Positions 1,381 to 33,704 of a DNA stretch of 39,304 nucleotides are shown one piece after another. A program made the position numbers and the translations under genes. Within the stretch, counting starts at the first letter, position 1, and every line of letters starts with the position of its first letter. Source of the DNA: Stagnihabitans tardus (lineage in GTDB: Bacteria; Pseudomonadota; Alphaproteobacteria; Rhodobacterales; Rhodobacteraceae); assembly GCF_009925085.1 (NCBI RefSeq), contig NZ_JAABNR010000026.1, positions 1 through 39,304 on the forward strand, read 5' to 3'. Below the pieces are notes generated by a model, which was not told the DNA's origin, ran no database searches, and saw only the letters and a program-made list of their open reading frames with translations.

Positions 1381-1396
1381 TGTCGCGTCTGAGACA
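1381..1396. promoter_or_regulatory. Palindromic regulator site TGTCGC-GTCT-GAGACA
   Basis: Matches the consensus TGTCNC-N4-GNGACA seen at several other intergenic places in this window. It lies 206 bp upstream of the binding-protein gene at 1603. A further half site, GTGACA, follows at 1403-1408. Proposed binding site for the AcoR-like regulators encoded here (inference). Confidence 0.6.
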
Positions 1397-1494
1397 GGCC
1401 CTGTGACAGGTCCTGCCGCTCATGGGTCAGTGGCCAAAACAGGGGGCTTCCCGCAGCATTCGGGACGGGAGAGGCCTGCAAGGCGTCAGGGAGG

Positions 1495-1509
1495 GGCGAT
1501 CGCATCGCC
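1495..1509. promoter_or_regulatory. Dyad GGCGAT-CGC-ATCGCC
   Basis: Perfect 6-bp inverted repeat with a 3-bp centre, about 95 bp upstream of the binding-protein start. It could be an operator. It is short and GC-rich, so chance is possible. Confidence 0.25.
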
Positions 1510-1563
1510 ATGACGCCATTCAGGGGATCGCTCTCATGAACCTTGCGACATGGGTGGCGCAGG

Positions 1564-1580
1564 GGGTTTTGGCAAAACCC
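1564..1580. promoter_or_regulatory. Dyad GGGTTTTG-G-CAAAACCC before the RBS
   Basis: Perfect 8-bp inverted repeat around a single base, ending 10 bp before the AGGGAGGA ribosome binding site of the gene at 1603. The one-base centre favours a protein operator over an RNA hairpin, although a shorter stem with a TGGC loop is possible. No local-type repressor gene (LacI, GntR) is present in the window. Confidence 0.4.
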
Positions 1581-1602
1581 AACCCTTCAGGGAGGAACAA
1601 GA

Positions 1603-2670
1603 ATGATGATGAACAAACTGTCCGCCATCGGTCTCGCGGCGCTTCTGGCGAGCTCGACCGTGGCCGTGGCGCAGGATGACACGTCCAAGAAGCTTTACCT
1701 CGGCGTCGGCAATACCAGCGCCGAATACTGGACCCAGATGATCTGGGGCGCGACCCAGGTCATGGAATCGGTCGGCGGCACGGTCGAGGTCATCGGCAAT
1801 GACTTCGACCCCCAGAAGTCGTTGCAGAACATCGGCGCCATCACGGCTCCGGGCTGCGAGGGCTGCATCTTTACCTGGTTCCCGGATTCGCCCGCCTTCA
1901 CCAAGACCTTCGTGGAAAAGATCGCCGATGCCGGCGGTTTCATCACCACGCTGTGGAACCGGGCCGAGGAAATCCACCCCTGGGATACGGCTGCGGAAGC
2001 CTGGGTCGCCAATATCTCGTTCGACGGCGTCGATGCGGGCTATCAGAACGGCATGGCGCTCTGCAACGCCATGGGCGGCACCGGCGAGATCGTCGTTCTG
2101 CAAGGCGTGCTGGACAATGCGCCCGCCAAGCAGCGCACCATGGGCCTGGAGAAGGCCATTGCCGAATGCCCCGGCATGACCGTGCTGGAGATGCAGGTCG
2201 GCAGCTGGCAGCAGGCGCCCGCGCAAGACATCACCCGGACCTGGCTGACCAAGTATGGCGACCGGATCAAGGGCATCGTCGGCCAGAATGACGCGATGGC
2301 GCTGGGTGCCGTGGCGGCTCTGCGCGAAGCGGGTCTGGCTGGCAAGGTCTTCGTCACCGGCACCGACGGTTCTTCGGACGTCGTCAAGCTGATCGAGACC
2401 GGCGAGATGCTGTCCACCATGTCGGGCCTGAACGAATACCAGGGCGCGATTGCCGCCGCCTTGGCCTATGGCGCCCGCACCGGCGATATCAAGCTCTCTG
2501 ACCTGACCGAGGCGCAGCGCGACTTCTTCGTCCAGCAGATCCTGATCACCAAGGAGAACGCGACCGAGTTCCTGGCGCGCAAGCCCGATCCGAAAGACTA
2601 CACCTACGAAGCCATCAAGGCCGACTTCTGGGCCAAGTCTGCCGGCCAGATCCCGAACGGCGTCAACTGA
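1603..2670 (+). CDS. CUT2-type ABC transporter periplasmic substrate-binding protein
   Basis: A 355-residue protein starting MMMNKLSAIGLAALLASSTV with a Sec signal peptide cleaved near AVAQ-DD. The mature part has the two-lobed periplasmic-binding-protein/LacI fold: LYLGVGNTSAEYWTQMIWGA at the N-lobe, a hinge near GEIVVLQG, then GIVGQNDAMALGAVAALREAG and VFVTGTDGSSDVVKLIETG. These are family hallmarks of sugar-binding proteins serving ribose-type importers. Start 1603 is chosen over an upstream in-frame ATG because AGGGAGGA sits six bases before it and the signal peptide begins there. It heads an operon with permease, ATPase, permease, aldehyde dehydrogenase and SDR. The substrate cannot be read from the sequence; it may be a polyol, sugar or other cyclic compound. 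Confidence 0.88.
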   Translation: MMMNKLSAIGLAALLASSTVAVAQDDTSKKLYLGVGNTSAEYWTQMIWGATQVMESVGGTVEVIGNDFDPQKSLQNIGAITAPGCEGCIFTWFPDSPAFTKTFVEKIADAGGFITTLWNRAEEIHPWDTAAEAWVANISFDGVDAGYQNGMALCNAMGGTGEIVVLQGVLDNAPAKQRTMGLEKAIAECPGMTVLEMQVGSWQQAPAQDITRTWLTKYGDRIKGIVGQNDAMALGAVAALREAGLAGKVFVTGTDGSSDVVKLIETGEMLSTMSGLNEYQGAIAAALAYGARTGDIKLSDLTEAQRDFFVQQILITKENATEFLARKPDPKDYTYEAIKADFWAKSAGQIPNGVN

Positions 2671-2678
2671 AGCCTTCC

Positions 2679-2705
2679 TGCGGGACGCGCCCCTTGCGTC
2701 CCGCA
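2679..2705 (+). other. Intercistronic stem-loop after binding-protein gene
   Basis: TGCGGGACGC pairs perfectly with GCGTCCCGCA around a 7-base loop, just after the binding-protein stop and before the permease start. There is no T-run. Such hairpins commonly protect the upstream message or reduce read-through, so that binding protein exceeds membrane components (known for ABC operons; inferred here). A second GC stem follows near 2721-2737. Confidence 0.6.
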
Positions 2706-2763
2706 TCAAAGCTGAAGGGCTCTCCCCCTGGGGGGAGGGCCTGTCTCCGAAAGGACCTCGCGG

Positions 2764-3717
2764 ATGTCTAAACTCTTGCAATCTCAGGGCCCGCTTCTGG
2801 CCCTGCTGGGCCTTGTTCTTCTGTTCTCGGTCATCACCGACAGCTTCGCCTCATGGGGCAACCTGGGGGCCGTGCTTGAGGCCGCCGCCATTCCGGCCGT
2901 CGTGGCCATCGGCCTGACCTTCGTCTTGATGCAGGCCTCCATCGACCTGTCGGTCGAAGGTGTGGCCTCCTTGGCCAATATCATTCTGGCGATCACCATC
3001 GCCAATTCGGTGACCGCCACCGATATCGGCCTGTGGGCCGTGCCCCTGGTGCTGGGCGTGGGCCTGGCCATCGGCGCCACCAGCGGGGCGATCTCGATCT
3101 ATGTGCGCATGCCGTCCCTGATCGTGACTTTGGGCATGTGGCTGACCACGGTCGGCCTGGCCGCGCTCTTGTATCCCGGACGCCTGCCGCAGATCCTGGA
3201 CACGCGGATCACCGGGCTGGCCATCGGCAAGGTCTGGGGGCTGAGCTGGATCGTCTATCTGACGCTGGCCCTGATCATCATGGCCCTTCTGGTCGAAAAG
3301 CACACCCGGTTTGGCCGCATGTGCCGTGCCATCGGGGAAAACGAGCCCGTGCTGGTCATGTCGGGCATCAAGGTCATCCGCCACAAGATCGCGGCCTTTG
3401 CCCTGGCGGGGGGCTGTTATGCCGCCGCCGGCATCCTGATGGGGGCCCGCATCGGCGTGGGCAACACGCAATCTGGCGTGGGGCTTCTGTTCCCCTCGAT
3501 CGCGGCCTGCGTCCTGGGCGGCACCTTGTTGTCGGGCGGCCATGGCGGCGTGCGCCAGTCGATGATCGGGGTCCTGATCCTGGTCACCCTGCGCAACGGG
3601 CTGATCATGGTCGGCGTCGATCCCCTTCTGCAATCGGCGCTGGAAGGCGCGGTCATCATCCTCGCCGTGGCCGGATCGACCTGGCACCTGCGGCGCAAGA
3701 TCAGGGTCATCAAATGA
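2764..3717 (+). CDS. CUT2-type ABC transporter permease
   Basis: A 317-residue integral membrane protein of the ribose/autoinducer-type permease family (BPD_transp_2). Hydrophobic segments begin at LLALLGLVLLFSVI and recur along the chain, about eight to ten in all. The conserved GGTLLSGGHGGV motif lies near residues 258-269, and FALAGGCYAAAGILMGARIG precedes it. AAAGGA lies a suitable distance before the ATG. The stop overlaps the start of the ATPase gene (ATGA), indicating translational coupling. It should pair with the second permease at 5233 to form a heterodimeric channel with the ATPase at 3714. Confidence 0.88.
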   Translation: MSKLLQSQGPLLALLGLVLLFSVITDSFASWGNLGAVLEAAAIPAVVAIGLTFVLMQASIDLSVEGVASLANIILAITIANSVTATDIGLWAVPLVLGVGLAIGATSGAISIYVRMPSLIVTLGMWLTTVGLAALLYPGRLPQILDTRITGLAIGKVWGLSWIVYLTLALIIMALLVEKHTRFGRMCRAIGENEPVLVMSGIKVIRHKIAAFALAGGCYAAAGILMGARIGVGNTQSGVGLLFPSIAACVLGGTLLSGGHGGVRQSMIGVLILVTLRNGLIMVGVDPLLQSALEGAVIILAVAGSTWHLRRKIRVIK

Positions 3718-5228
3718 CGGCGTTTTCTCTTGAGGGTATCTCCAAACGCTTCGGCGAGGTCACCGCGCTGGACAATGTCAGCCTGTCACTCAACGAGGGC
3801 GAGGTCCTGGGGCTGATCGGCCAGAACGGCTCGGGCAAGTCCACGATCATGAAGGTCATGGCGGGGCTGCACCGGCCCGACAGCGGCGTGGTCAAGGTGG
3901 GCGGGCGCGCCGTGCAGCTGCGCTCTCCGGCCGAGGCGGCGCTTGCGGGCATCGGCCTGGTTCACCAGGAGCAATCGCTGATCCAGGCGCTGAGCGTGGC
4001 CGAGAACCTGTTCCTGGACAAGCCTGCGGGCTCGACCTGGGCGGGGGTCTACCGCTGGAACAGCCTGCGCGACCGGGCAAAGGCACAGCTGGACAAGGTC
4101 GAGCTGGACATCGACCCCTTTACTCCGGTGTCCGCCCTTTCCTTCGGCCAAAGGCAGATGGTCGAACTGGCCAAGGTCCTGTCCTTGGAGGAACTGGTTC
4201 ACGGCCACCTGGTCATCCTTTTCGACGAGCCCACCGCAGTCCTGAACCCGCCCGAGATCCAGGCCCTCTTCGGCCAGATCCGGCGGATCAAGCATCGCTC
4301 CTCGGTGGTCTTCGTTTCGCACCGGATGGACGAGATCCTCGATATCTCGGACCGGGTCTATGTCATGAGCGACGGGCGCAACGTGGCGACCCGCGACCGC
4401 GACGCCGTGAACCCGGACGAGCTTTACGAGCTGATGGTGGGCCGCCAGCGCGTCAACCGCAAGGACCGCAAGCCGCGCGAGGCCCATATCGGTGCAGAGC
4501 CGGCGTTGACGCTGAACCATGTGACGGTGCCCGGGGAGATCGAGGATATCTCGTTGAAACTGGCGCCCGGAGAAATCCTGGGCCTGATCGGCGTGCAGGG
4601 TTCGGGCGCGGAAACCATCCTGCGCACGGTCTTTGGCATGGCCGACGACTGGCAGGGCAAGATCGAGTATTTCGGCGCGCCCTTGGACATCGACACCCCG
4701 GCGCAGGCCGTGGCCAAGGGCATCGGCTATCTTCCGGCCGAGCGCAAGACCGAAGGCATGATCCGCAACACCTCGGTCTCCGAGAATGTGGCGATCACCT
4801 ACGGCTGGCAGCATGGCCGCGGCGCGGGGTTGATCTCGCGGGCCAAGGAACGCGGGATGATCGAGGGCTGGGTCCGGAAGCTGGCCATCAAGACGCCTTC
4901 GATCGCGCATCGGATCGACAACCTGTCAGGCGGCAACCAGCAAAAGGTCGTCCTGTCGAAATGGCTGTTCGGCAAGACGCTGAAGGTCCTGATGCTGGAC
5001 CATCCGACGCGGGGCCTTGACCCGGGCGCGCGCTCCGACCTCTTCGCCGTGATCCGCGAGCTGGCCGATCAGGGCCTGGCGATCCTCTTGGTGGGCGACA
5101 CCTTGGACGAGGTCCTGACCCTGTCGGATTCGATCATCGTCATGAAGGACGGCCGCGTCAGCGCCCGGATCGAGGGGGTGCAGGCCGCGCCCCCTTCGGA
5201 AGAAGACCTCGTCAAGGCCATGGTGTAG
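3714..5228 (+). CDS. CUT2-type ABC transporter ATPase, tandem nucleotide-binding domains (second Walker B altered)
   Basis: 504 residues, the usual length for RbsA-type double ATPases. Domain 1 has Walker A GQNGSGKST (36-44), signature LSFGQRQMVELAK and Walker B LVILFDEPTA. Domain 2 has a Walker A without lysine (GVQGSGAET), which is usual for this subfamily, and signature LSGGNQQKVVLSKWL. Its Walker B reads LMLDHPTRGLD, with His430 where the catalytic Glu normally stands, so domain 2 is probably catalytically dead. The switch region of domain 2 (LLVGDTLDEVL) also departs from the usual form. Start 3714 overlaps the permease stop (ATGA). The next permease follows four bases after the stop. 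Confidence 0.9.
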   Translation: MTAFSLEGISKRFGEVTALDNVSLSLNEGEVLGLIGQNGSGKSTIMKVMAGLHRPDSGVVKVGGRAVQLRSPAEAALAGIGLVHQEQSLIQALSVAENLFLDKPAGSTWAGVYRWNSLRDRAKAQLDKVELDIDPFTPVSALSFGQRQMVELAKVLSLEELVHGHLVILFDEPTAVLNPPEIQALFGQIRRIKHRSSVVFVSHRMDEILDISDRVYVMSDGRNVATRDRDAVNPDELYELMVGRQRVNRKDRKPREAHIGAEPALTLNHVTVPGEIEDISLKLAPGEILGLIGVQGSGAETILRTVFGMADDWQGKIEYFGAPLDIDTPAQAVAKGIGYLPAERKTEGMIRNTSVSENVAITYGWQHGRGAGLISRAKERGMIEGWVRKLAIKTPSIAHRIDNLSGGNQQKVVLSKWLFGKTLKVLMLDHPTRGLDPGARSDLFAVIRELADQGLAILLVGDTLDEVLTLSDSIIVMKDGRVSARIEGVQAAPPSEEDLVKAMV

Positions 5229-5232
5229 GGGG

Positions 5233-7631: not shown

Positions 7632-7668
7632 AATCAACGCCCTTCGGGGCACATAACGGGAGGAAATC

Positions 7669-8457: not shown

Positions 8458-8463
8458 TCCCTT

Positions 8464-8488
8464 GGCCGGGGGGAGACCCCCGGCCTTT
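8464..8488. terminator. Terminator-like hairpin between convergent genes
   Basis: GGCCGGGG pairs with CCCCGGCC around a short GA-rich loop, followed by TTT on the + strand. It sits directly between the SDR stop (8457) and the stop of the convergent regulator gene (8487). The T-run is short, so efficiency is uncertain. Confidence 0.6.
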
Positions 8489-10346
8489 ACGTCTCGTCGC
8501 GGGCCTTCTGGATCTGGATTTTCCGATACAAAGTCGCCCGCGACACCCCCAAATACCGAGCCGTCAAAGAGACATTGCCGCCGTTGTAGCGCAAGGCCGC
8601 CTCGATCTTGGAGGCCTCGGACTGCGAGCGCGCCGTCAGGTCCTTGCGGGCGATCTCGTCCACGATGTCATCGGGCAGATGCTCCATCCCGATCAGCTTG
8701 CCATCGGCCAGGGCCACGGCATGGCGCAAGGTATTGCGCAGCTCGCGCAGGTTGCCGGGCCAGTGGTAATGCGACAGGACCAGCCGGGAATCCTCGTCCA
8801 TCTCGACCTCGGGGCGGCCGAGTTTCTCGCGCTCGACATGGAAGAGGTCGCGGATCGTGGCTTCGAGGTCGGGGGCGGCACGCAAGGGGGCCAAGGCCAC
8901 CTGCCCGCCCTTGAGCCGGTGCATCAGGTCCGTGCGCATTCGCCCGTCGCGCACCAGGGTATCCAGGTCCTGGGTCGAGATCACGATGACGCCGATCCCA
9001 TTGGCCCCCGCCTGCCGGTCGTTCTCCAACAGGGCCAGAAGCGCGGTCTGCCGGGTCTCGTCCATCTCGTCGATGCGGTCGATCAAGAGACAGGACCTTT
9101 GCCCCGTCAGCCGCGCCTGCAACAGCGCGCCCAGATCGACCTGGGCCTCCAGCGAGGCGCAGTCGATGAAGACCGTCTCGGCCTCGTCCCCAAAGGCGAC
9201 GCGGGCCACGGCCTTGGCGAAGGCGGTCTTGCCCGAGCCCGACTCGCCGGTCACCACCAGGGGCAACCCCGCCGACAAAAGCCTGCGGGCGCGGTCCATG
9301 GCCTGGGACAGGATCGGGTTGATCCGCAAGGGTTCCTCGGCCAGATCCACCGTGCGCAGCGTGGGCGCCGTAGCCCGGGGCGACACAAGGGCGCGCGGCG
9401 AACGGGTGCGGGTCTCGGGATGGGTCAGGACCGCCTGCAGGCTGCGGCCCTGGAAGTTCAGCCGGATCGGCGCATCCGGGCGCAGATCGGCAAACGACTG
9501 GTCCAATTCGAAGATCTCCTCGGCCTGCTGGCCCACAAGCTGGCCAACAGGCCGCCCCAAGAGCCGCGTCGCAAAGGAAGACCCGTCCAGCACGCGGCCG
9601 TTTTCATCCAGCGCCAGGCGGCCCTCTTCGGCAATGTCGCCGGTCTCGCCATTGTCGAGGATGCGCAGCATCAGGTTGCGCCGGTTCAGGCGACCGAAAT
9701 AGCCATTCTCGATCCGCCGAGCCGAGCGCTCGACGATCTGCTGCACCATCTTGTTGACCCGGGCATCGGCCTGCCGCGCGGTCGTCACGTTGATCACGCT
9801 TTCGATCGCCCCGCCCCGCCCGAGAACGGGAGCCGTCAGACAGGTCAGCCGCTGTGTCGCCGCCCCGTAATGCTCGGCCCCCGCGATGATCACCGGCTTG
9901 CCCACGCGCAGGCAGGTGCCCACGCCATTGGTGCCCTGGGCATCCTCGGTCCAGACCGAGCCCGGGATGACGCCCGACCCGGCCAGGTCGCCCAGATACT
10001 GGTAATCGCAGCGGAAGAGCATCATGGCCCCCTGCGACGAAGCCAAGGAAACAAGGTATTCGCTGTCGACCAGCTGGCGGAACAGGCGTTCCACCTCGGG
10101 TTCGGCGATGCGCAGGAACTCTTCGCGCTCTTGCATCAGGGCCTGGATTTCAGAGTGGCTGAGCACAGCCGCGCGCGGCACTGCATCCGGAAGCAGGTTG
10201 TAATCCGTCAGGCAGCGCTTCCACGACTGTTCGACCAGATCCGGCAATCGTGCCTCGGCAACGCCCCGCGCCCGCAGGATGCTTTCGATTTCGCTGGACA
10301 AGGGATCGTTGAACCCCTTCGCCTCAAGTGCTTCCGTCTCCCACAT
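8487..10346 (-). CDS. AcoR-like Fis-family regulator lacking sigma-54 contact loop
   Basis: 619 residues: a GAF-like sensor (about 75-225), a short PAS-like stretch (about 230-310), an AAA+ domain (about 345-560) and a Fis-type helix-turn-helix (about 575-612, GGNVSLTARYLGVSRATLYR). Walker A is GESGSGKT (367-374). The GAFTGA loop needed to touch sigma-54 is absent; the corresponding segment reads DLGALLQARLTGQ. Walker B is LLIDRIDE, with Arg424 replacing the usual Glu. It is therefore expected to act without sigma-54 and perhaps without ATP hydrolysis. The start follows GGGAGGGG. It lies 49 bases after a flavin reductase gene on the same strand. A close paralogue is at 26336-28171 with an identical recognition-helix region. 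Confidence 0.88.
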   Translation of the reverse strand: MWETEALEAKGFNDPLSSEIESILRARGVAEARLPDLVEQSWKRCLTDYNLLPDAVPRAAVLSHSEIQALMQEREEFLRIAEPEVERLFRQLVDSEYLVSLASSQGAMMLFRCDYQYLGDLAGSGVIPGSVWTEDAQGTNGVGTCLRVGKPVIIAGAEHYGAATQRLTCLTAPVLGRGGAIESVINVTTARQADARVNKMVQQIVERSARRIENGYFGRLNRRNLMLRILDNGETGDIAEEGRLALDENGRVLDGSSFATRLLGRPVGQLVGQQAEEIFELDQSFADLRPDAPIRLNFQGRSLQAVLTHPETRTRSPRALVSPRATAPTLRTVDLAEEPLRINPILSQAMDRARRLLSAGLPLVVTGESGSGKTAFAKAVARVAFGDEAETVFIDCASLEAQVDLGALLQARLTGQRSCLLIDRIDEMDETRQTALLALLENDRQAGANGIGVIVISTQDLDTLVRDGRMRTDLMHRLKGGQVALAPLRAAPDLEATIRDLFHVEREKLGRPEVEMDEDSRLVLSHYHWPGNLRELRNTLRHAVALADGKLIGMEHLPDDIVDEIARKDLTARSQSEASKIEAALRYNGGNVSLTARYLGVSRATLYRKIQIQKARDET

Positions 10347-10938: not shown

Positions 10939-11047
10939 GACCATCCTCCAGGTCCAAAAGGGATGTGATCCTCAGGGCCAACACCCAGACTAAGCACGTT
11001 CGCGCGCCGCAGCCATGTCAATCCTGATAAGGGTTAATGTCTCAGCG

Positions 11048-11063
11048 AGTCTCAAATGAGACA
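11048..11063. promoter_or_regulatory. Palindromic regulator site AGTCTC-AAAT-GAGACA
   Basis: Matches TGTCNC-N4-GNGACA except for the first base. It sits two bases past the stop of the CoA-transferase (minus strand) and about 110 bp upstream of the flavin reductase at 10396-10938. An extra half site TGTCTC lies at 11038-11043. Confidence 0.6.
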
Positions 11064-13973: not shown

Positions 13974-14096
13974 TGCGACGGCCCTCCCCAGCGCCGTATC
14001 CTGCGGCGGGCTGTTGATCACCCGCTTTGGGCTAGATTTCCCAACAACTTGGCCCCTTGGAAACTGGCCCAGATGCATCAGGGGTGTCCGGGGCCC

Positions 14097-14112
14097 TGTC
14101 TCAGAAGTGACA
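14097..14112. promoter_or_regulatory. Palindromic regulator site TGTCTC-AGAA-GTGACA
   Basis: Perfect match to TGTCNC-N4-GNGACA in the 284-bp divergent region between the flavin reductase (start 13973) and the SDR (start 14258). It lies 123 bp before the reductase start. The core AGAA is TTCT on the other strand, the same spacer seen at several other sites. Confidence 0.7.
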
Positions 14113-14184: not shown

Positions 14185-14200
14185 TGTCGCAGAAGAGACA
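14185..14200. promoter_or_regulatory. Palindromic regulator site TGTCGC-AGAA-GAGACA
   Basis: Second perfect site in the same divergent region, 88 bp from the first (about eight helical turns, so possibly on the same DNA face) and 57 bp before the SDR start. Half sites (GCGACA, CGACAC) lie between the two. Confidence 0.7.
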
Positions 14201-20305: not shown

Positions 20306-20417
20306 TGTTCCCCCCGTATCGGCTTGCGGTTTCCCTCCCGCGCAAGCCGACCGCTGTGTGTGGACATCTGTCGCATCCACTGGGGTCAGGATGATACGCA
20401 GCCCCTTGGCCGGACAA

Positions 20418-20433
20418 CTGCCCTTATGTGACA
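20418..20433. promoter_or_regulatory. Weak palindromic site (one good half, GTGACA)
   Basis: On the minus strand it reads TGTCAC-ATAA-GGGCAG, so one half matches TGTCNC-N4-GNGACA and the other is degenerate. Its distance to the ATPase start at 20305 (about 113 bp) matches the spacing of better sites to their genes. Confidence 0.3.
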
Positions 20434-20647: not shown

Positions 20648-20663
20648 TGTCGCTTCTGAGAAG
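20648..20663. promoter_or_regulatory. Palindromic regulator site TGTCGC-TTCT-GAGAAG
   Basis: Matches TGTCNC-N4-GNGACA except in the last two positions and has the common TTCT spacer. A second dyad, GCGACA-AAC-TGTCGC at 20639-20653, overlaps it. Located in the divergent region between the second importer and the LLM operon. Confidence 0.5.
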
Positions 20664-24974: not shown

Positions 24975-24984
24975 CGGTGCCTCC

Positions 24985-25353
24985 CTAACCTGCGGTGATG
25001 GCGCGGGCCTGGTCCATATCGCCCTGCATCGCGGCGATCAGCGCCTCGACCGTGTCAAAGCGCGCTTCCGAGCGGATGAAGGCCAAGAACTCGACCTCGA
25101 TCTCCTGGCCATAGATATCGCCTGCGAAATCCAGGATATGGGTCTCGATCCTCGGGTCCGCCCCGTCGAAGGTCGGCCGGGTGCCATAGGAGGTGACCGA
25201 GGGCCAGACCTTGTCCTCTCCGGCAATCCGGGTCTGCGAGGCATAGACGCCGTAAGCCAGGGGGGCCGCCGCATTCAGATTGGCGGTCGGAAAGCCCAGG
25301 ACGCGGCCTCTTTTGTCGCCATGGGCGACGATCCCCTTGATGGTCATGGTCAT
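24985..25353 (-). CDS. Stand-alone riboflavin kinase (RibF C-terminal domain only)
   Basis: 122 residues, matching only the kinase half of bacterial RibF. Landmarks: GIVAHGDKRGRVLGFPTANL (7-26) with the PTAN motif that binds ATP-Mg, SYGTRPTFDG (55-64), ETHILDF with the expected catalytic Glu70, then DIYGQEIEVEFLAFIR. The FMN adenylyltransferase half is absent, so the product would make FMN without taking it to FAD. The ATG overlaps the SDR stop (ATGA at 25350-25353) and the EamA gene follows ten bases later. FMN is the cofactor of the LLM monooxygenases and flavin reductases in the same island, which explains the placement (inference). Met3 is an alternative start. Confidence 0.87.
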   Translation of the reverse strand: MTMTIKGIVAHGDKRGRVLGFPTANLNAAAPLAYGVYASQTRIAGEDKVWPSVTSYGTRPTFDGADPRIETHILDFAGDIYGQEIEVEFLAFIRSEARFDTVEALIAAMQGDMDQARAITAG

Positions 25354-26129: not shown

Positions 26130-26251
26130 GACCTTGCCCCCGCTTCAGCCCGCCGGAACGCATCCCTTGCGGGCCTGTCTGTCTTGCATGTCTTCACGGC
26201 AGGCTCCTCCATCCCATGCGGATGCTGCCGAGCTTCGGGACGCAGGGCAAT

Positions 26252-26335: not shown

Positions 26336-28171
26336 TCAGGCCTCGCCGCGGGCCTTCTGGATCTGGATCTTGCGATACAGCGTCGCGCGCGAGACACCCA
26401 GGTACCGCGCCGTCAGCGAAACATTCCCACCGTTGTAGCGCAGCGCCGCCTCGATCTTGGAGGCCTCGGACTGCGAGCGCGCCGTCAGGTCCTTGCCCGC
26501 GATCTTGGCCACGATGGTTTCGGGCAGATGTTGCAGCCCGACGCGGCGGTCTTCGGCAAGCGCCACGGCATGGCGCAGGCAATTGCGCAGCTCGCGCAGG
26601 TTGCCGGGCCAGTGATAATGGCTGAGCATCCGCAGCGCATCCTCGTCCAGGACGGCGCCGGGCTTTCCCAGGGCCTCGCGCTCCATGGCGAAGAGGTCCT
26701 GGATCGTGGCTTCAAGGTCCGGCACCGAGCGCAAGTTGGCCAGCGTGACCTGCCCGCCGTTCAACCGCTGCATCAGGTCGGGACGCAGACGGTTTTCGGC
26801 CACCAGCTGATCCAGATCTTTGGTCGAAATTCCGATCAGCCCGACCAGGTTGCTCCCCGACTGCCGGTCGCTTTCCAAGGCCGCCAGAAGCGCGGTCTGG
26901 AAGGGCTCGTCCATCTCGTCGATCCGGTCGACCACAAGACAGGATTTCTGCCCGACATGCAAACGCTGGATCAGCAGGTCCAGCTCGGCCCGCCGATCCG
27001 GGGCCGCGCAGTCGATGTAAACGATGTCCAGGGGGTCGACCTGCGCCACGGCCTTGGCGAAGGCGGTCTTGCCGACCCCGGTCTCGCCGGTGACCACCAC
27101 GGGCAGGCCGACCGACAAGAGCCGCCTGGCCCGGTCCAAAGCCTGCGACAGGATCGGGTTGATCCGCAGGGCCTCTTCGGCAAGCGGAGCCGGGCGCCGT
27201 GTCGCGGCAACCACCCGAGGCAGGACGCGGCGCGGCGCTTCGGGCAAGGACAGGACCGCCTGAAGGCTGCGGCCGCGATAGGTCAGCGAAATGGGCGTAT
27301 CGGGGCGAATCTCGGAAAGCGCGCGGTCCATCTCGAAGAGCTCTTCGGCCGATTGGCCAGCCAGGTCGTCCAGCGATTGCCCCAGCAATTGCGAGGTGAA
27401 GGAGGCCCCGTCCAGAATGCGCCCGTGATCATCCAGCGCCAGGCGGCCCTCGTCGGCCAGATCGGTGATGGCGCCGTCATCCACGATGCGCAGCATCAGG
27501 TTGCGACGGTTGAGTCTGCCGAAATAACCGTTCTCGATCCGCCGGGCCGAGCGCGTGACGATGTTTTGCACCATGCGATTGACCCGGGCATCGGCGTGGC
27601 GCGCTGTTGTGACGTTGATGACGCTCTCGATCGCCCCCCCGCGCCCGAGGACCGGAGCAGTCAGGCAGGTCAGCCGCATGATGGCCGCGCCGTAATGCTG
27701 GGTGCCCGCGATGATGACCGGCTTGCCCACCCGCAGGCAGGTGCCCACGCCATTGGTGCCCTGCTGATCCTCAGACCAGACCGAGCCGGGGATCACGCCC
27801 GACCCGGCCAGCTCGCCCAGGTATTGGTAATCACAGCGGAAAAGCACCATGGCCCCTTCGGTCGTGGCCAGGGAGACCAGGTATTCGCTGTCGACCAACT
27901 GGCGGAACAGCCGTTCGACCTCGGGTTCCGCGATGCGCATGAACTCTTCGCGCTCTTCCATCCGCAGGCGGATTTCCGAATGGCTAAGCACCGAGGCGCG
28001 CGGCACGGCATCGGGCAGCAGGTTGTAATCGGTCAGGCAGCGCTTCCAGGACTGCTCGACCAGGTCGGGCAGGCGCGCCTCATCCGACCCGCGCGCGCGC
28101 AGGATCGAGGCGATTTCCTTTGTGACAATATCGGTATTCGCGCGAGCCCCATGGGCTTCTGTCTCCCACAT
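26336..28171 (-). CDS. AcoR-like Fis-family regulator lacking sigma-54 contact loop (second)
   Basis: 611 residues, parallel to the regulator at 8487-10346 along its whole length: both begin MWETEA, share the GAF-like region (LVEQSWKRCLTDYNLLPDAV) and an identical C-terminal helix-turn-helix from ASKIEAALRYNGG to QIQKAR. Walker A is GETGVGKT; GAFTGA is absent (AELDLLIQRLHVGQ in its place); Walker B reads LVVDRIDE, Arg again replacing Glu. The same DNA targets are therefore expected, while differences in the sensor half allow different effectors. The start follows GGGAGGGACAGG. A perfect palindromic site lies about 200 bp upstream, next to the stop of the flavin reductase gene. Confidence 0.88.
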   Translation of the reverse strand: MWETEAHGARANTDIVTKEIASILRARGSDEARLPDLVEQSWKRCLTDYNLLPDAVPRASVLSHSEIRLRMEEREEFMRIAEPEVERLFRQLVDSEYLVSLATTEGAMVLFRCDYQYLGELAGSGVIPGSVWSEDQQGTNGVGTCLRVGKPVIIAGTQHYGAAIMRLTCLTAPVLGRGGAIESVINVTTARHADARVNRMVQNIVTRSARRIENGYFGRLNRRNLMLRIVDDGAITDLADEGRLALDDHGRILDGASFTSQLLGQSLDDLAGQSAEELFEMDRALSEIRPDTPISLTYRGRSLQAVLSLPEAPRRVLPRVVAATRRPAPLAEEALRINPILSQALDRARRLLSVGLPVVVTGETGVGKTAFAKAVAQVDPLDIVYIDCAAPDRRAELDLLIQRLHVGQKSCLVVDRIDEMDEPFQTALLAALESDRQSGSNLVGLIGISTKDLDQLVAENRLRPDLMQRLNGGQVTLANLRSVPDLEATIQDLFAMEREALGKPGAVLDEDALRMLSHYHWPGNLRELRNCLRHAVALAEDRRVGLQHLPETIVAKIAGKDLTARSQSEASKIEAALRYNGGNVSLTARYLGVSRATLYRKIQIQKARGEA

Positions 28172-28368
28172 CCTGTCCCTCCCAAGACGATGATGTGCCG
28201 AGCCTTGTTTCTTGCAAGACTGACGCAGGCCTTGCGCCTTTCGGTCCGGTCTTTCGCGCCTTGGGCCCCCTCAAGCCCTTGGCGCCCGGTTTCCGTGACG
28301 CAGCCCCCAGCCTAGCAGGACCGCGACTTGCGGCCATGTTGAACTTGCAACGACGGGGCGTCTCACCC

Positions 28369-28384
28369 TGTCTCGGATGAGACA
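28369..28384. promoter_or_regulatory. Palindromic regulator site TGTCTC-GGAT-GAGACA (extended)
   Basis: Perfect 6+6 palindrome that extends to CCCTGTCTC-GGAT-GAGACAGGG (28366-28387). It is the most symmetric site in the window. It lies between the flavin reductase stop (28392) and the regulator start (28171), suggesting autoregulation of the regulator. It could also fold as a hairpin ending the reductase message, but no T-run follows. Confidence 0.65.
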
Positions 28385-28391
28385 GGGTGTC

Positions 28392-28907
28392 TCAGGCCCT
28401 TGCGACCGAGGCGCGCTTGCCGTTCAGCCACAGGATCGGCGCCGGGGTCTGGGCGGCGACCTCGGGCAGGATGACTTCAGTGACCTTGCCGAAAAAGACG
28501 GTATGGGTCCCGAATTCATGAGCATCGGCCACGGTGCAGACATGGGCGCAGAGCGCGCTCTTCAGGATCGGGCCTGCGCCGTCCGTCCAATCCTCGGGCG
28601 AGAAGCGCTGGTCGCGCAGGTCGCTGCGCGAGAACCGCTCCAAAAGGCCGACATGGGTCTCGTCCATCAGGTTCAGCGTGAAGCCCCCGGTCCGCGTAAT
28701 GACCGGATGGATCGAGGCCGTGCGGTTGACGGCCACCATCATCGAGGGCGGCTCCATCGACAGCGATCCGGCCGAGGTCACGGCCATGCCATGCCAGGTG
28801 CCGGCCTCGTCCCGGGCCGTGACCAGCGAGACCGAGGCGGCGACCAGGCGCATGCTGGCCCGAAAGGCCTCTGCCATGGGTTTGGCGACCATTTCTTGTG
28901 ACGACAT
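28392..28907 (-). CDS. Flavin reductase-like FMN-binding protein (third)
   Basis: 171 residues, start MSSQEMVAKPMAEAFRASM, after GAGGA at a suitable distance; the open frame extends upstream but without a ribosome binding site. Very similar to the reductase at 13449-13973 (SVSLVTARDEAGTWHGMAVTSAGSLSMEPPSM, HTVFFGKVTEVILP, PILWLNGKRAS). It should supply FMNH2 to the LLM monooxygenases. It precedes the second AcoR-like regulator on the same strand, the same gene pairing as at 8487-10938. It is divergent from the beta-oxidation operon at 29104, with a weak palindromic site between them. Confidence 0.87.
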   Translation of the reverse strand: MSSQEMVAKPMAEAFRASMRLVAASVSLVTARDEAGTWHGMAVTSAGSLSMEPPSMMVAVNRTASIHPVITRTGGFTLNLMDETHVGLLERFSRSDLRDQRFSPEDWTDGAGPILKSALCAHVCTVADAHEFGTHTVFFGKVTEVILPEVAAQTPAPILWLNGKRASVARA

Positions 28908-29031
28908 CTGGACGGTCCTCCCCGTTCGCGACTTGCTGGCGGGCCGTCCGGGCGCCGCCGTTTGGACCACTATTCCCGGCGCCCCGTTCGGCTTGGAAGT
29001 GGACAAGATGCGGCAGGGATGGATGTCGTCG

Positions 29032-29047
29032 CGTCTCATGTTTGACA
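29032..29047. promoter_or_regulatory. Palindromic site, imperfect: CGTCTC-ATGT-TTGACA
   Basis: Two mismatches to TGTCNC-N4-GNGACA. It lies in the 196-bp divergent region, 56 bp before the hydratase/dehydrogenase gene and about 125 bp before the flavin reductase start. Confidence 0.45.
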
Positions 29048-29103
29048 GTTGCCGCCAAGACGATGGCACCCCAGACAGGACCCCAAAAGCCGGAGGACTG
29101 AAC

Positions 29104-31140
29104 ATGCCCGTCACCTATGAACGTCTTGAAGAGGCGGCCCTTGTCACTTTCGACAACCCGCCCTTGAACGTCTTCGGCCAAGAGATGCGGGCAGGTCTGC
29201 AAGCGGCCATCGCCCGGGCGCGGGAGGAGCGGCCCGCGCGGCTGATCCTGACCGGTGCGGGGCGGGCTTTCGTGGCGGGCGCCGATGCCAAGGAGTTCGA
29301 CGGCCCCCCGCTTGCGCCGCATCTGAACGACGTTCTGGCGGAATTGGTCGCCCTGCCCTTCCCGATTCTGGCCGCGATTTCGGGCCCGGCGCTTGGCGGC
29401 GGGCTCGAGATTGCGCTCGCCTGCCGCTATCGCATCGCTTCGCCCGGCGCGACCCTGGGTCAGCCCGAGGTGACCCTGGGTCTGGTGCCCGGCGCCGGGG
29501 CCACCCAGCGCCTGCCGCGTCTGGTCGGCATGGCCGCGGCGGTGGACCTGATCGGCCAGGGTGGCGCGATCCCGGCCGCCAAGGCGCTGGCCTTTGGTCT
29601 TGTCGATGAACTGGCCGATGACCCCCTGGCCGCCGCGCTTGCGGTCCCGGCCGAGGTGCTGCGTCGGGCGATTGCCGCCGATCACCGCCCGGCTCCGGCC
29701 CCGGATGAGGCCGCCGTCACCGCTGCCCATGCCCAGGCCAACCGCCGCGCCCCGGGGCAAGAGGCGCCGCACCTGGCCATCGACCTGACGGCCTCTGCCG
29801 CCACCGAGCCGATGGAAACCGCGCTCTTGCGCGAAAGGGCGACCTTCATCGCGCGCAGGCAGTCGGACCAGGCCCGGGCGCTGCGCCATGTCTTCTTTGC
29901 CGAACGCGCCGCCCCCGCCCGAGGCCGTGCTTACCCGGCGCCCGTGAAACTGCAGGCGGTCCTCGTCGTGGGCGGTGGCACGATGGGCGCGGGCATCGCC
30001 TATGCGCTTTTGCTCGCGGGTCTGACCGTCCATGTCATCGAGACCGATGCGGCAGGCGTAACCCGGGCCGAAGCCAACCTGGACAAGCTGATCACCCAAG
30101 GGATCGAGCGCGGGTCGATCACCGACCCGGCCTTCCGCACTCGCCTGACGCTGGGGGCGGGCTACACCGACCTGCCGCAAGCCGACCTGGCCATCGAGGC
30201 GGCCTTTGAAAGCCTGGAGGTCAAGCAGGCGATCTTTGCCGCCCTGCAAGCGGCCCTGCCGCCCGAGACCATCCTGGCCACCAACACCTCTTACCTGGAC
30301 GTGAATCTCCTGGCCCAGGGCATCACGGACCCCGGCCGCTTCATCGGCCTGCATTTCTTCGCCCCCGCCCATATCATGAAACTCTTGGAGATCGTGCAGG
30401 GCGCCAAGACCTCGGACGCCGCGATGGGCATGGCCTTTGCGCTCGCCAAAAGGCTGGGCAAGATCCCGGTCGTGGCGGGGGTCTGCGACGGGTTCATTGG
30501 CAACCGGATCCTGGCGCGCTATCGCAAGGCCTGCGACCTGGTGATGCTGGAAAGCTCTTGCCCCAAGGGGATCGACGCGGCCCTGCGCGGCTTTGGCATG
30601 GCGATGGGGCCCTATGAGGCGCAGGACCTTTCGGGTCTGGATATCGCCTATGCCAACCGCAAGCGGCAGGGGCGCAGCGGGCGCTATGTCACCATCGCCG
30701 ACACCTTGGTCGAGGATATGAAACGCCTTGGCCGCAAGACCAACGCGGGCTGGTATGATTACGTCGACGGCAAGCCGGTGGAGTCCGATGCGGTGACGCA
30801 TGTGATCTACCGGGCCGCCGATGAGGCTGGGATTAACCGCACCACCCTGCCCGCCGAGGATATCGCCGACCGCGCCCTTCTGGCGATGATCATGGAGGCG
30901 ATCCTGATCCTGCAGGAGGGCATCGCCGCCCGGCCCTCGGACATCGACCTGGTGATGGTGCATGGCTACGGCTTCCCGCGCTGGCGCGGCGGGCTGATGC
31001 ATCATGCCGATGTGATTACGCCGCCGGCTCTCTTGGCCCGGCTGGAGACCCTGGCCTTGGAGGACCCGCTGTCCTGGGCCGTCCCCGACCTCTTGCGCCG
31101 CCTCGTGGGCGAGGCACGCCCCTTCAACAGCCTGAATTGA
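29104..31140 (+). CDS. Fused enoyl-CoA hydratase / 3-hydroxyacyl-CoA dehydrogenase
   Basis: 678 residues. The N-terminal crotonase domain has the oxyanion segment AGADAKEF (58-65), [15 protein letters not shown] with Glu102, and [14 protein letters not shown] with Glu122, so both hydratase glutamates are present. The NAD domain follows with [16 protein letters not shown] (about 289-304), NTSYLDV and [14 protein letters not shown] carrying the catalytic His region, and DGFIGNRIL. It performs two successive beta-oxidation steps, giving a 3-oxoacyl-CoA for the thiolase seven bases downstream. The start follows GGAGG; the long upstream extension of the frame overlaps the divergent reductase and is rejected. 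Length and order match FadJ/FadB-type proteins. Confidence 0.92.
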
Positions 31141-31147
31141 GGACGCC

Positions 31148-32353
31148 ATGCGCCACGTTTTCCTGTGTGACTATATTCGCACGCCCATCGGTCGCCATGG
31201 CGGCGCCCTGTCGAAATTGCGCCCCGATGACCTGGCGGCCCTGCCCCTGGCCGAACTCATGCGCCGCAACCCTGGCATGGACCCCAAGGCCATCGAGGAA
31301 GTCTGGCTGGGATGCGCCAACCAGGCGGGCGAGGACAACCGAAACGTCGCCCGCATGGGCTCGCTTCTTGCCGGACTGCCGGAGACGGTGCCGGGTGTCA
31401 CGGTGAACCGTCTGTGCGGCTCGGGGATGGAGGCGGTGATCTCGGCCCTGCGCGCGATCAAGTCGGGCGAGATGGAGCTGGCCATCGCAGGCGGCGTCGA
31501 AAGCATGAGCCGCGCACCCTTTGTGTTGTTGAAATCCGAAACCGCCTTTTCGCGCAACGTGGCCATGGAAGACACGACCATCGGCTGGCGCTTCATCAAC
31601 CCCCTGATGCAAAAGGCCTATGGCACGGATTCCATGCCAGAGACCGCGCAGAACCTGGCCGATGAGATGAAGATTTCGCGCGAGGCGCAGGACGCCTTTG
31701 CCGTCGCTTCGCAGCAGAAGGCCGGTGTGGCGATGTCCTCGGGCCGCTTTGCGCGGGAGATCCTGCCCGTGTCGGTGCCGGCGGGCAAGGGCAAGGTGAC
31801 CGAGGTCACCCAGGACGAACACCCCCGCCCCGAGACCTCCCTGGCCGACCTGGCCCGGCTGCGGCCGATCACAAGGCCGGACGGCTCGGTGACGGCGGGC
31901 AATGCGTCCGGCGTGAATGACGGGGCGGCGGGGCTGATCCTGGCCTCGGAGGCGGCGGTGGCGCGCCATGGTCTGCGGCCGATTGCCCGCGTGGTGGCCG
32001 GGGCCTCGGCCGGTGTGGCGCCGCGCATCATGGGCTATGGCCCGGTGCCTGCCGTGCAAAAGCTTTTGGCCCAGCAGGGGCTGACCACCGCCGACATCGA
32101 CCTCTTCGAGTTGAACGAGGCCTTTGCCGCCCAGGTCCTCGCCTGTCTGCAAGGTCTGGGGATTGCGGCTGATGACCCCCGCGTGAACCCCAATGGCGGG
32201 GCCATCGCTTTGGGTCACCCGCTTGGCATGTCGGGCGCCCGCATCACCGGCAGCGCGGCGCTGGAGCTGGCCCAAGGCACCGCGCGGCGCGCCGTGGTCT
32301 CGATGTGCGTGGGCGTCGGCCAGGGCGTCGCGCTGCTCCTGGAACGGGTCTGA
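31148..32353 (+). CDS. Acetyl-CoA acyltransferase (thiolase)
   Basis: 401 residues with the full thiolase active site: nucleophile Cys90 in VNRLCGSGMEAV, GGAIALGHPLGMSGAR with His356, and SMCVGVGQG with a Cys near 387. It resembles degradative thiolases of the 3-oxoadipyl-CoA/3-oxoacyl-CoA branch (opening MRHVFLCDYIRTPIGRHGGAL). The ribosome binding site GAGGA overlaps the stop of the hydratase/dehydrogenase gene, so the two are coupled. It should cleave the 3-oxoacyl-CoA to acetyl-CoA or propionyl-CoA plus a shorter acyl-CoA. A strong terminator follows. Confidence 0.92.
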   Translation: MRHVFLCDYIRTPIGRHGGALSKLRPDDLAALPLAELMRRNPGMDPKAIEEVWLGCANQAGEDNRNVARMGSLLAGLPETVPGVTVNRLCGSGMEAVISALRAIKSGEMELAIAGGVESMSRAPFVLLKSETAFSRNVAMEDTTIGWRFINPLMQKAYGTDSMPETAQNLADEMKISREAQDAFAVASQQKAGVAMSSGRFAREILPVSVPAGKGKVTEVTQDEHPRPETSLADLARLRPITRPDGSVTAGNASGVNDGAAGLILASEAAVARHGLRPIARVVAGASAGVAPRIMGYGPVPAVQKLLAQQGLTTADIDLFELNEAFAAQVLACLQGLGIAADDPRVNPNGGAIALGHPLGMSGARITGSAALELAQGTARRAVVSMCVGVGQGVALLLERV

Positions 32354-32408
32354 ATTCGGGCCAAACTCATTCGGGTTTGGGGCCTCCCCGCCCCTGACCC
32401 TTCACTCG

Positions 32409-32436
32409 CCCGCAGTCGCAAGGCTGCGGGTTTTTT
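32409..32436 (+). terminator. Rho-independent terminator after thiolase
   Basis: CCCGCAG pairs with CTGCGGG around an 8-base loop, followed by six T. Confidence 0.85.
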
Positions 32437-32456
32437 CGTGGCCCACCCCATCTAAG

Positions 32457-32487
32457 CAAAAAGCCAGGGCACCGAAATGCCCTGGCT
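32457..32487 (-). terminator. Rho-independent terminator after alcohol dehydrogenase
   Basis: On the minus strand AGCCAGGGCA pairs with TGCCCTGGCT around TTTCGG, followed by TTTTT. Confidence 0.85.
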
Positions 32488-32543
32488 CTCTGGTCCGGCG
32501 GCGGCTGACGGGAGTTTCAGACGCCGCCCATGACGCTCGGGGA

Positions 32544-33608
32544 TTACTTCCCGAGGTCGATCAGGATCTTCAGCTGGGTGCCGGCCGGATCCAGAAGCGC
32601 GTCGAAGCCCTCCTTGATCGCGCTGTCCAGCGTCACGGTCTTGGTCACGACCTTGCGGGCCGGGATCTGGCCCGAAGCGATGAGGCGCATCACGCGCGGC
32701 CACATCTGGGCGGTATAGGCCCAGGAACCGCGGATATCGATGTCCTTGTAGACCACGTTGAACCAGTTGATCGGCGCCTCACCGGCATGCAGGCCGATCT
32801 GCACCACGGTGCCGCGCTTGCGCACCGCATCGACGCAGGCCTGAAGCGCCAGGGTGTTGCCCACGCATTCCAGCGCGACGTCACAGCCCACGTTGCCCTC
32901 GGTCGCAGCCCGGATCACGTCGCCGACGTTCTGCTCACGCGGGTTGATGGTGACCACGTCGGGGATGATCCCCTTGGCGATGGCCAGACGCGTGCCATTG
33001 GGATCCGAGACGAAAAGCTGCGTGGCCCCCGCCGCACGGGCAGCCAGAAGGGTCAGGAGGCCGATGGGGCCCGCCCCGGTGACCAGCACGGAATCACCCG
33101 CCTTCACCCCGGCGCGTTCCACGCCATAGACGGCCACGGCGGTCGGCTCGACCAGGGCCGCATCCTCGTCCGTCAGATTGTCCGGCACCTTGTAGACGCA
33201 ATAGCCCTTGAGCAGGCTCTGTTGCGCCATGCCACCGCCGATCCAGGAGAGGCCCGCGATTTGCAGATTGTCCGACAGGTTGAAATGCCCACGGTCGGTG
33301 AAATAGTCGCCCCCGCGCGGCGTCATGAAGGGCTGGACCGAGACCCGGTCGCCGACCTTCACATGGGAGACCTTCTTGCCCACCTTGGTGACGACGCCAC
33401 CATATTCATGGCCCAGAACCTGGGAGACCGCCGCGCCCGAGGCATCCTTGGGGACGAAGATCGGCCCATAGGCATATTCGTGCAAATCCGTGCCGCAGAT
33501 GCCGACGAAGCGGTTCTGGATCACCACCTCGTCATCTGCGGGCTCGGCCGGTTGCGCAATGTCTTCGACCCGCAGGTCCTTGGCGGCGTGAAAACGCAAA
33601 GCTTTCAT
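32544..33608 (-). CDS. Zinc-type medium-chain alcohol dehydrogenase (butanediol/sorbitol dehydrogenase-like)
   Basis: 354 residues. Catalytic zinc ligands are visible: Cys38 in GICGTDLHEY, His67-Glu68 in LGHEYGG and Glu153 in LVEPTAVAVYG. The cofactor domain has VLVTGAGPIGLL and ends its second strand with SDPNG, suggesting NAD. The structural-zinc lobe (about 90-112) contains no Cys; MTPRGGDYFTDRGHFNLSD replaces the usual four-cysteine loop. The start is set at MKALRFHAAKDLRVEDI, after GGGGAGGAT; the upstream open frame overlaps the divergent gene. Likely oxidises a secondary alcohol or diol. It stands alone, divergent from the acyl-CoA dehydrogenase, with a perfect palindromic site between them. 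Confidence 0.87.
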   Translation of the reverse strand: MKALRFHAAKDLRVEDIAQPAEPADDEVVIQNRFVGICGTDLHEYAYGPIFVPKDASGAAVSQVLGHEYGGVVTKVGKKVSHVKVGDRVSVQPFMTPRGGDYFTDRGHFNLSDNLQIAGLSWIGGGMAQQSLLKGYCVYKVPDNLTDEDAALVEPTAVAVYGVERAGVKAGDSVLVTGAGPIGLLTLLAARAAGATQLFVSDPNGTRLAIAKGIIPDVVTINPREQNVGDVIRAATEGNVGCDVALECVGNTLALQACVDAVRKRGTVVQIGLHAGEAPINWFNVVYKDIDIRGSWAYTAQMWPRVMRLIASGQIPARKVVTKTVTLDSAIKEGFDALLDPAGTQLKILIDLGK

Positions 33609-33688
33609 TCGGGTATCCTCCCCCATTGATCTCTCCGGCGCCGGGGCGCCTTGGGGGAAGTAGAGGCGCGGGGGCGGTCCTGGACAAC

Positions 33689-33704
33689 TGTCTCTTCTGC
33701 GACA
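33689..33704. promoter_or_regulatory. Palindromic regulator site TGTCTC-TTCT-GCGACA
   Basis: Perfect match to TGTCNC-N4-GNGACA in the 187-bp divergent region, 80 bp before the alcohol dehydrogenase start and 91 bp before the acyl-CoA dehydrogenase start, so it could serve both. Confidence 0.7.

Follow-up and report, generated by a model that had tools for sequence, protein, structure and literature searches.

TyrR is a relative of the bacterial enhancer-binding proteins that lacks the GAFTGA motif. It acts through strong and weak palindromic boxes, of which the weak ones need an adjacent strong one, and serves a sigma-70-like promoter via the polymerase alpha subunit (PMC4374768). NtrC of Rhodobacter capsulatus, from which the GAFTGA loop is deleted, works with sigma-70, ATP binding rather than hydrolysis being essential; NtrC of Caulobacter requires its Walker residues (PMC10274813). 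At the level of DNA sites, the published NifA consensus is TGT-N10-ACA (PMC7294313), and TGT/ACA repeats with a 10-12-bp spacer are common to 15 enhancer-binding-protein groups in Clostridiales (PMC6615313). Here we describe a recurrent 16-bp palindrome, TGTCNC-N4-GNGACA, in a catabolic gene island on the 39.3-kb contig NZ_JAABNR010000026.1 of Stagnihabitans tardus (39,304 nucleotides, 'the window' below), together with two paralogous regulators, REG1 and REG2, encoded in the same island.

The palindromes are a real, island-specific regulon, as the original prediction had proposed; this is carried by the clustering of the perfect sites and by their orthologous placement. With a probability of roughly 0.75, we read the palindrome as the operator of this regulon, which would be bound by REG1 and REG2 and from which sigma-70 promoters would be activated. 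No description of the motif, the regulator or the island was found in the literature at the level of titles and abstract openings.

Perfect palindromes cluster between the genes of the island

Six full matches to the pattern had been read by eye from the window, and all six were exact. Only 0.07 matches were expected, and six or more were reached in none of 100 dinucleotide shuffles. Although the coding fraction of the window is 0.91, none of the six lies within a gene, and all six have the TGT-N10-ACA form. A pattern search of the 4.59-Mb genome returned ten perfect sites, six on the 39-kb contig and four elsewhere; when the open reading frames (ORFs) around each of these four were read, all proved to be inside ORFs. 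The rate outside the island predicts 0.035 perfect sites per 39.3 kb, which gives a Poisson P of ∼2e-12 for the density in the window. The genome was searched at zero and one mismatch, and intergenic or coding placement was determined for the four outside perfect sites.

Inexact matches are uninformative by count alone, because their frequencies are near expectation or control: 26 against 19.45 expected in the window at up to two mismatches, and 85 against 62 for the reversed-pattern control in the genome at up to one. Two one-mismatch matches, at 1040 and 26381, are intragenic and were excluded from the site list. The four near matches proposed earlier (11048, 20418, 20648 and 29032) held up by a different route, as each has a position-matched site in orthologous intergenic regions. 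Site quality varies between operons: importer 2, LLM2, fadB and flavin reductase 2 have imperfect sites only (LLM, luciferase-like monooxygenase). For the resulting ten window sites, the nearest facing start codon is 56-263 bp away (112 bp for 20418, by subtraction). In a matrix of 32 site strings, which were hand-chosen and are mutually non-independent, TGTC is strongly conserved, position 5 is mainly T, G or A, position 6 is C, and position 7 is A or T in 92% and never C, so that the whole reads TGTCNC-N4-GNGACA.

The sites are given below with their counterparts in orthologous loci, among which L023, L043 and L045 are from a Rhodobacterales metagenome-assembled genome (MAG), L024 and L046 from Gemmobacter, L029 from Agrobacterium and L031 from Phaeobacter. 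SBP denotes a substrate-binding protein, SDR a short-chain dehydrogenase/reductase and ADH the alcohol dehydrogenase.

1381..1396, + strand: perfect palindrome, the distal site in the promoter of the importer-1 (SBP) operon; L044, L029 and L031 have counterparts
1414..1429, + strand: proximal site of degenerate sequence, TGCCGCTCATGGGTCA, which follows the perfect site at 1381 by 33 bp; TGCCGCCGATGGGGCA in L029, weaker in L031, also present below the L044 site
11048..11063, - strand: site with one mismatch before flavin reductase 2 and REG1; L024, L029 and L031 have orthologous sites
14097..14112, strand not assigned: perfect palindrome between flavin reductase 1 (-) and SDR (+); found by pattern match and in orthologous regions
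14185..14200, + strand: second perfect palindrome, closer to the SDR; the MAG carries TGTCGCAGAAGAGACA upstream of the same SDR (L045:7449)
20418..20433, - strand: degenerate site before the importer-2 operon, with TTGTCC (20412-20417) directly after; a 23-bp block is identical in L023 (MAG)
20648..20663, + strand: degenerate site (two mismatches) before the LLM2 operon; TGTCACTCCTGAGACG in L023, TGTTGCTTGTGAGACA in L029
26252..26267, - strand: perfect palindrome before the SDR-riboflavin kinase-EamA operon; found by pattern match and in orthologous regions
28369..28384, - strand: perfect palindrome 197 bp upstream of REG2; L023:108 before the ortholog
29032..29047, strand not assigned: site (two mismatches) between flavin reductase 3 (-) and fadB (+); sites in the corresponding regions of L024, L029, L031 and L022
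33689..33704, strand not assigned: perfect palindrome between ADH (-) and acyl-CoA dehydrogenase (+); sites in L029, L031 and L046, and before ADH in L043

A role of the palindromes as terminators was dropped, since none of the ten window sites has a run of five T in the 20 bases to its left or right.

The motif accompanies the island across orders and onto plasmids

Homologues of the regulator were found in the MAG (77% identity), in Gemmobacter aquatilis (63%) and, at 47%, in one further genome of the family; others, 62-71% identical, lie on five plasmids of Agrobacterium, Rhizobium and Phaeobacter that are typed conjugative (three) or mobilizable (two). From six loci of the regulator search we used L023 and L024 and left out L025-L028, which are 29-31% identical. 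From the five plasmid matches, H2 was left out, and L030 and L032 were excluded from the site sets as near copies of L029 and L031. At the thresholds used, the regulator was not found in 15 other congeneric genomes, and among sampled genomes it occurred in one of 393 others of the family and in none of 384 others of the class, samples that miss known holders such as Gemmobacter aquatilis. Absence from the 15 congeneric genomes and presence on plasmids suggest that the island was probably acquired horizontally. The island plasmids from Agrobacterium and Rhizobium (L029, L030) are typed conjugative and those from Phaeobacter (L031, L032) mobilizable; their sources are aspen, coal-mine soil, an Emiliania culture and clam aquaculture.

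The clusters have in common flavin reductases, LLM oxygenases, CoA transferases, a fadB-like gene, thiolase, alcohol and acyl-CoA dehydrogenases, importers and riboflavin genes; gene order varies, and not each cluster as retrieved shows every gene. The proposed comparison of upstream regions bore out the prediction: the MAG, Gemmobacter, Agrobacterium/Rhizobium and Phaeobacter islands have the motif before equivalent operons. In these intergenic regions the position of the site is conserved while the flanks diverge. For instance, the ADH/acyl-CoA dehydrogenase site reads TGTCGCAGAAGAGACA in the window, CGTCGCAGAAGAGACA in Agrobacterium and TGTCGCAGGAGAGACA in Phaeobacter; the importer-1 sites read TGTCGCGTCTGAGACA, TGTCACGTCTGAGACA and CGTCGCGTCTGAGACA, and those of flavin reductase 1 TGTCACTTCTGAGACA, TGTCAATTCTGAGACA (twice) and TGTCAAATCTGAGACA. 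Genome-wide, all four perfect sites of the MAG and all three of Gemmobacter are intergenic and beside island genes, against four matches of the reversed control pattern in each genome. Judged on perfect sites, the genome scan that could have refuted the original prediction spoke for it. On the plasmids, perfect sites fall in the island in 2/2 and 2/2 cases for Phaeobacter, and in 1/2 each for Agrobacterium and Rhizobium, the second Rhizobium site being inside an ORF and the second Agrobacterium site lacking a certain placement. The motif accompanies the island across orders and onto plasmids.

The island also carries flavin-supply genes (24985-25347 and 35604-39123), namely a stand-alone riboflavin kinase, GTP cyclohydrolase II, RibD, a lumazine-binding protein of the riboflavin synthase type and the electron transfer flavoprotein (ETF) alpha subunit. 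Orthologous clusters additionally encode lumazine synthase, and in two of them a one-mismatch site lies upstream (before ribH at L029:9448 and L045:5900); the site at L029:9448 falls in an annotated SDR fragment that overlaps ribH, and the rib/ETF operon of the window is cut by the contig end. At the other edge of the contig, directly ahead of the first operon of the island, are broken transposase reading frames (188-1200), which we take to be IS30-like.

Two regulators share an almost identical DNA-binding domain

The candidate binders are the following.

8487..10346, - strand: REG1, 619 aa, behind flavin reductase 2; GAF domain, degenerate AAA+ domain without GAFTGA, Fis-type helix-turn-helix (HTH)
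26336..28171, - strand: REG2, 611 aa, a REG1 paralog, 73% identical
26342..26494, - strand: C-terminal Fis-type HTH region of REG2, 98% identical to the REG1 copy (8493-8645)

Both proteins have the domain order GAF, AAA+, HTH_8, with Pfam PF00158 (Sigma54_activat) and PF02954 above cut-off. Their Fis-type HTH stretch of 51 residues differs at a single residue, and only REG1 and REG2 match it closely genome-wide, the next best match being 49% over 35 residues. No other DNA-binding family was found among 30 of the 35 listed window genes by Pfam at the thresholds used, with weak domains possibly missed because 20 of these 30 were taken only to E 1e-10; the five genes left out of the Pfam scan were the broken transposase, three permeases and one CoA transferase, the last of which was scanned with NCBIfam. 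Across the orthologs, the 41-residue HTH core is within one residue of that of REG1 in eight of nine regulators (REG1 counted). The L022 regulator differs by five residues there and is 44-46% identical overall, and its adjacent flavin reductase retains a one-mismatch site upstream (L022:4606). On these grounds the Fis-type HTHs of REG1 and REG2 are probably the binders of the island palindromes.

The regulators have lost the loop by which enhancer-binding proteins contact sigma-54. In 7/7 aligned regulators from six genomes the GAFTGA loop is deleted, and no GAFTGA-like string occurs in any of nine; another protein of this genome, with GSFTGA, keeps the loop in the alignment. Walker A is retained in all seven, and the Walker-B Asp-Glu has become Asp-Arg in six and Asp-His in one. 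The loss of both the loop and the Walker-B glutamate suggests that REG1 and REG2 probably bind ATP, hardly hydrolyse it and partner the housekeeping polymerase. None of the NCBIfam models reached its cut-off with REG1 and REG2: the best match was DhaR (149.9 and 148.8 bits, cut-off 551), above TyrR (72.1 and 59.8, cut-off 576) and nifA (69.3 and 67.5, cut-off 528.85). AlphaFold, run with a four-sequence alignment, gave a mean pLDDT of 45.8. Gemmobacter encodes a second, diverged regulator (L046:6067-7935; 39.5% identical to REG1) beside its acyl-CoA dehydrogenase, with a related but altered HTH.

REG1 and REG2 apparently control their own expression, as sites precede the flavin reductase 2/REG1 operon and REG2. 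The former site, with REG1 behind, is present in the window, Gemmobacter, Agrobacterium and Phaeobacter, and the REG2 site has a counterpart in the MAG.

Many sites stand at set distances from putative sigma-70-like elements

To relate the sites to promoters we used 33 hand-chosen sites in both orientations, that is 66 flanks. This set derives from an earlier one of 30 (18 of them with TTG at offset 1 in at least one orientation) by removal of L031:22832 and L031:22781, the latter with TTG, and addition of L043, L044, L045 and two from L046. A TTG starting one base past the palindrome occurs in 21 of the 66 flanks, compared with a mean of 1.0 at offsets 5-49; in the window alone, one orientation shows it at 5/10 sites (binomial P 2e-5). 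Of these 21 flanks, 13 have T as the last base of the hexamer that starts at offset 24, 17 bp below TTGNNN; this is the maximum over offsets 14-39, and A+T content peaks at the same hexamer. The putative elements, as hexamers picked by eye from alignments, are listed here.

1431..1459, + strand: putative importer-1 promoter, -35 TGGCCA (1431-1436), 17 bp, -10 CAGCAT (1454-1459), the latter 57 bases below the palindrome
10987..10992, - strand: putative -10 TAGTCT of the flavin reductase 2/REG1 operon; TAATCT, TAACTT and TAACAT at 55-56 bases in orthologs
14034..14039, - strand: putative -10 AAATCT of flavin reductase 1; AATNNT at 57 bases in L024, L029, L031 and at flavin reductase 3 of the window
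26222..26250, - strand: putative SDR-riboflavin kinase-EamA promoter, -35 TTGCCC (26245-26250), 17 bp, -10 CAGCAT (26222-26227); TTGCGG/CAGCAT in L023 and TTGCGA/CAGGAT in L029 at identical spacing
28309..28314, - strand: putative -10 TAGGCT of REG2, 54 bases below the palindrome; TACTCT at 55 in L023
29049..29077, + strand: putative promoter of the fadB-thiolase operon, -35 TTGCCG (29049-29054), 17 bp, weak -10 CAGACA (29072-29077)
33659..33687, - strand: putative ADH promoter, -35 TTGTCC (33682-33687), 17 bp, -10 TCTACT (33659-33664); TCTACT at the same spacing in L043, L029 and L031, TTAACT in L046

Two layouts emerged. In the near layout the elements follow the palindrome directly, as at ADH, where TTGTCC-N17-TCTACT is found in the window, the MAG and Agrobacterium, TTGTTG-N17-TCTACT in Phaeobacter and TTGTCC-N17-TTAACT in Gemmobacter, and at the SDR/riboflavin kinase promoter, with TTGCCC-N17-CAGCAT in the window and TTGCGG-N17-CAGCAT in the MAG. 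In the far layout (importer 1, flavin reductases and REG2), column conservation has maxima 25-30 and 52-57 bases below the palindrome. CAGCAT lies exactly 57 bases below it in all four importer-1 promoters compared (window, L044, L029 and L031). Five flavin reductase promoters have AATNNT or AAATCT at 57 bases, while in four flavin reductase 2 and two REG2 promoters TANNNT lies at 54-56 bases. A second, degenerate site follows the palindrome at 33 bp, most evidently at importer 1. Overall, the spacing of the -35-like TTG is strong, and a -10-like hexamer keeps its distance in most promoters of the far and some of the near layout. Flavin reductase 2 has an extra TGAGAC(A/G) half-site after the palindrome at 10-bp spacing (window, L024 and L029), which may be a third contact.

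On the other side of the ADH site, the reading frame of the acyl-CoA dehydrogenase extends as far up as an ATG at 33721 (33721-33795), and since a segment there, TGGAGCAATCG, recurs in L029 and L045, the start codon and promoter of this gene are uncertain.

Proposed mechanism and alternatives

According to the activation model, the Fis-type HTHs of REG1 and REG2 would bind TGTCNC-N4-GNGACA, with mainly A or T at positions 7 and 10, as dimers. The proteins would be enhancer-binding-protein relatives stripped of the sigma-54 contact loop and the Walker-B glutamate. Near-layout palindromes would end one base before a TTGNNN -35 element, with the -10 seventeen bases beyond; if the -10 spans -12 to -7, the site centre would be at about -44.5, and a site centred there is in the class II activator position. 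In the far layout, the strong palindrome would lie ∼33 bp, or three helical turns, higher, the -10 element would come 54-57 bases after it, and the near position would be taken by a second site that is degenerate and mostly a right half. The GAF domain is probably the sensor, the obvious candidate in these proteins; on sensing a signal, probably a substrate or intermediate of the pathway, the regulators would fill strong and weak sites and thereby turn on import, monooxygenase, flavin supply, β-oxidation and their own genes. Sigma-70 promoters are indicated by the missing GAFTGA, by the lack, at up to one mismatch, of -24/-12 elements before the operons and by the spacing to -35/-10-like elements. 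Together with the class II-like site position, the precedents of R. capsulatus NtrC, which acts with sigma-70 though GAFTGA-less, and of TyrR, with its strong and weak boxes, favour activation, and the data suggest sigma-70 activation at the island promoters that resembles TyrR or R. capsulatus NtrC.

Several observations weigh against this model. The presence of the regulator in the islands gives no independent support, because the islands were located via the regulator search, and the orthologous sites are non-independent samples. The grouping into near and far layouts was made post hoc on alignments, and the near group is partly defined by the TTG. A strict -10, NANNNT, is found in 4/21 flanks at offset 24 and equally in 4/21 at offset 26; several near-layout flanks have no good -10 (GTGGCG, CTTCCT, CCGCCG and CTGGAG), and part of the 21 TTG flanks face no known gene start. 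Among far-layout promoters, a sixth flavin reductase promoter, in L022, has no clear -10, and the L031 proximal site ahead of flavin reductase 2 is poor. Sites 20648 and 14185 match neither layout clearly, and position 7 is G in 2/6 perfect window sites.

The main rival to activation has the same proteins at the same sites acting chiefly as repressors, seated beside the -35 and keeping the island off until an inducer releases them. TyrR, of similar architecture, represses or activates according to box position (PMC4374768), and a site that touches the -35 could obstruct sigma. The palindrome, however, adjoins the -35 without covering it, and the far layout retains its strong site well upstream. 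Moreover, the promoter elements are imperfect, as is common with activators (ADH TTGTCC and TCTACT each match 4/6 consensus positions), and we regard repression as unlikely, though deserving to be kept in mind. Much less probable is that REG1 and REG2 act from a distance with RpoN holoenzyme at classical sigma-54 enhancer sites, as the NifA analogy of the original prediction implied. The site form was rightly recognized, since TGT-N10-ACA fits NifA and a 10-12-bp spacer many enhancer-binding proteins; both regulators match Pfam Sigma54_activat, and the presence of a sigma-54 gene in the genome speaks against our activation model. The implied mechanism is not supported, as GAFTGA and the Walker-B glutamate are both gone in all seven regulators, putative sigma-70-like elements are conserved at fixed spacing, and -24/-12 matches (TGGCAC-N5-TTGC, up to one mismatch) are at chance in the window, with four found and 3.62 expected, none of the four being intergenic or before an operon.

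That a global host regulator, instead of REG1/REG2, uses the sites is more improbable still. Palindromes of such length are common to many bacterial regulators; but the perfect sites outside the island are all in ORFs in S. tardus and absent from the MAG and Gemmobacter, and the motif moves with the island from one order to another and to plasmids. A chance origin of the sites, or their membership of a dispersed repeat family without regulatory role, can practically be set aside. In favour of this reading, inexact matches are near background, and, as a point against our model too, the fifteen congeneric genomes without the regulator, several of them incomplete, hold 0-7 perfect sites each, 41 in total against 28 for the reversed control. 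As such genomes hold up to seven perfect sites, the number per genome is unremarkable, and it is the clustering in intergenic island DNA that counts. Against chance stand the P of the perfect-site density in the window, flanks that differ between sites, and orthologous sites that hold their position across lineages.

Palindromes first seen by eye can now be tested as a regulon whose proposed operators, promoters and regulators are named and which links most operons of a catabolic island. Reporters built on the operators could help to identify the inducing compound, and the two layouts lend themselves to testing how an enhancer-binding-protein relative acts at housekeeping promoters. The database label 'sigma 54-interacting transcriptional regulator' is suggested to be misleading for the REG1/REG2 family.

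Comparison with known systems

TyrR of Escherichia coli and Enterobacter resembles the island system as proposed here in combining strong with weak palindromic sites. Its box, TGTAAA-N6-TTTACA, is 2 bp wider than TGTCNC-N4-GNGACA, and it senses aromatic amino acids, whereas REG1 and REG2 have a GAF domain. The geometry of the island is not that of TyrR either, because the centre of the strong ipdC box lies 33 bp above the -35 centre, compared with ∼12 bp (near) or ∼45 bp (far) in the island. NtrC of R. capsulatus and Caulobacter shares with REG1 and REG2 that it is an alphaproteobacterial enhancer-binding protein with GAFTGA deleted, but it is a phosphorylated response regulator of nitrogen genes, in contrast to GAF-domain proteins of a catabolic island; in addition, Caulobacter NtrC needs the Walker residues, while REG1 and REG2 have lost the Walker-B glutamate.

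NifA agrees in site spacing and in the Fis-type HTH. It differs in its sigma-54 partner, and REG1 scores far below the cut-off of the nifA model. DhaR, whose branch we presume to be akin to AcoR, is closest by NCBIfam match and by domain order; REG1 and REG2 differ from DhaR/AcoR in falling below the DhaR cut-off, lacking GAFTGA and having other target genes. Set beside these systems, we lean modestly towards the view that REG1 and REG2 represent a GAF-AAA+-Fis family, nearest to DhaR, that has given up sigma-54 contact and ATP hydrolysis and may now consist of dedicated sigma-70 activators with a two-layout promoter grammar, spread together with its full regulon through Rhodobacterales and Rhizobiaceae on plasmids and islands, and represented in one genome by two regulators of identical HTH core.

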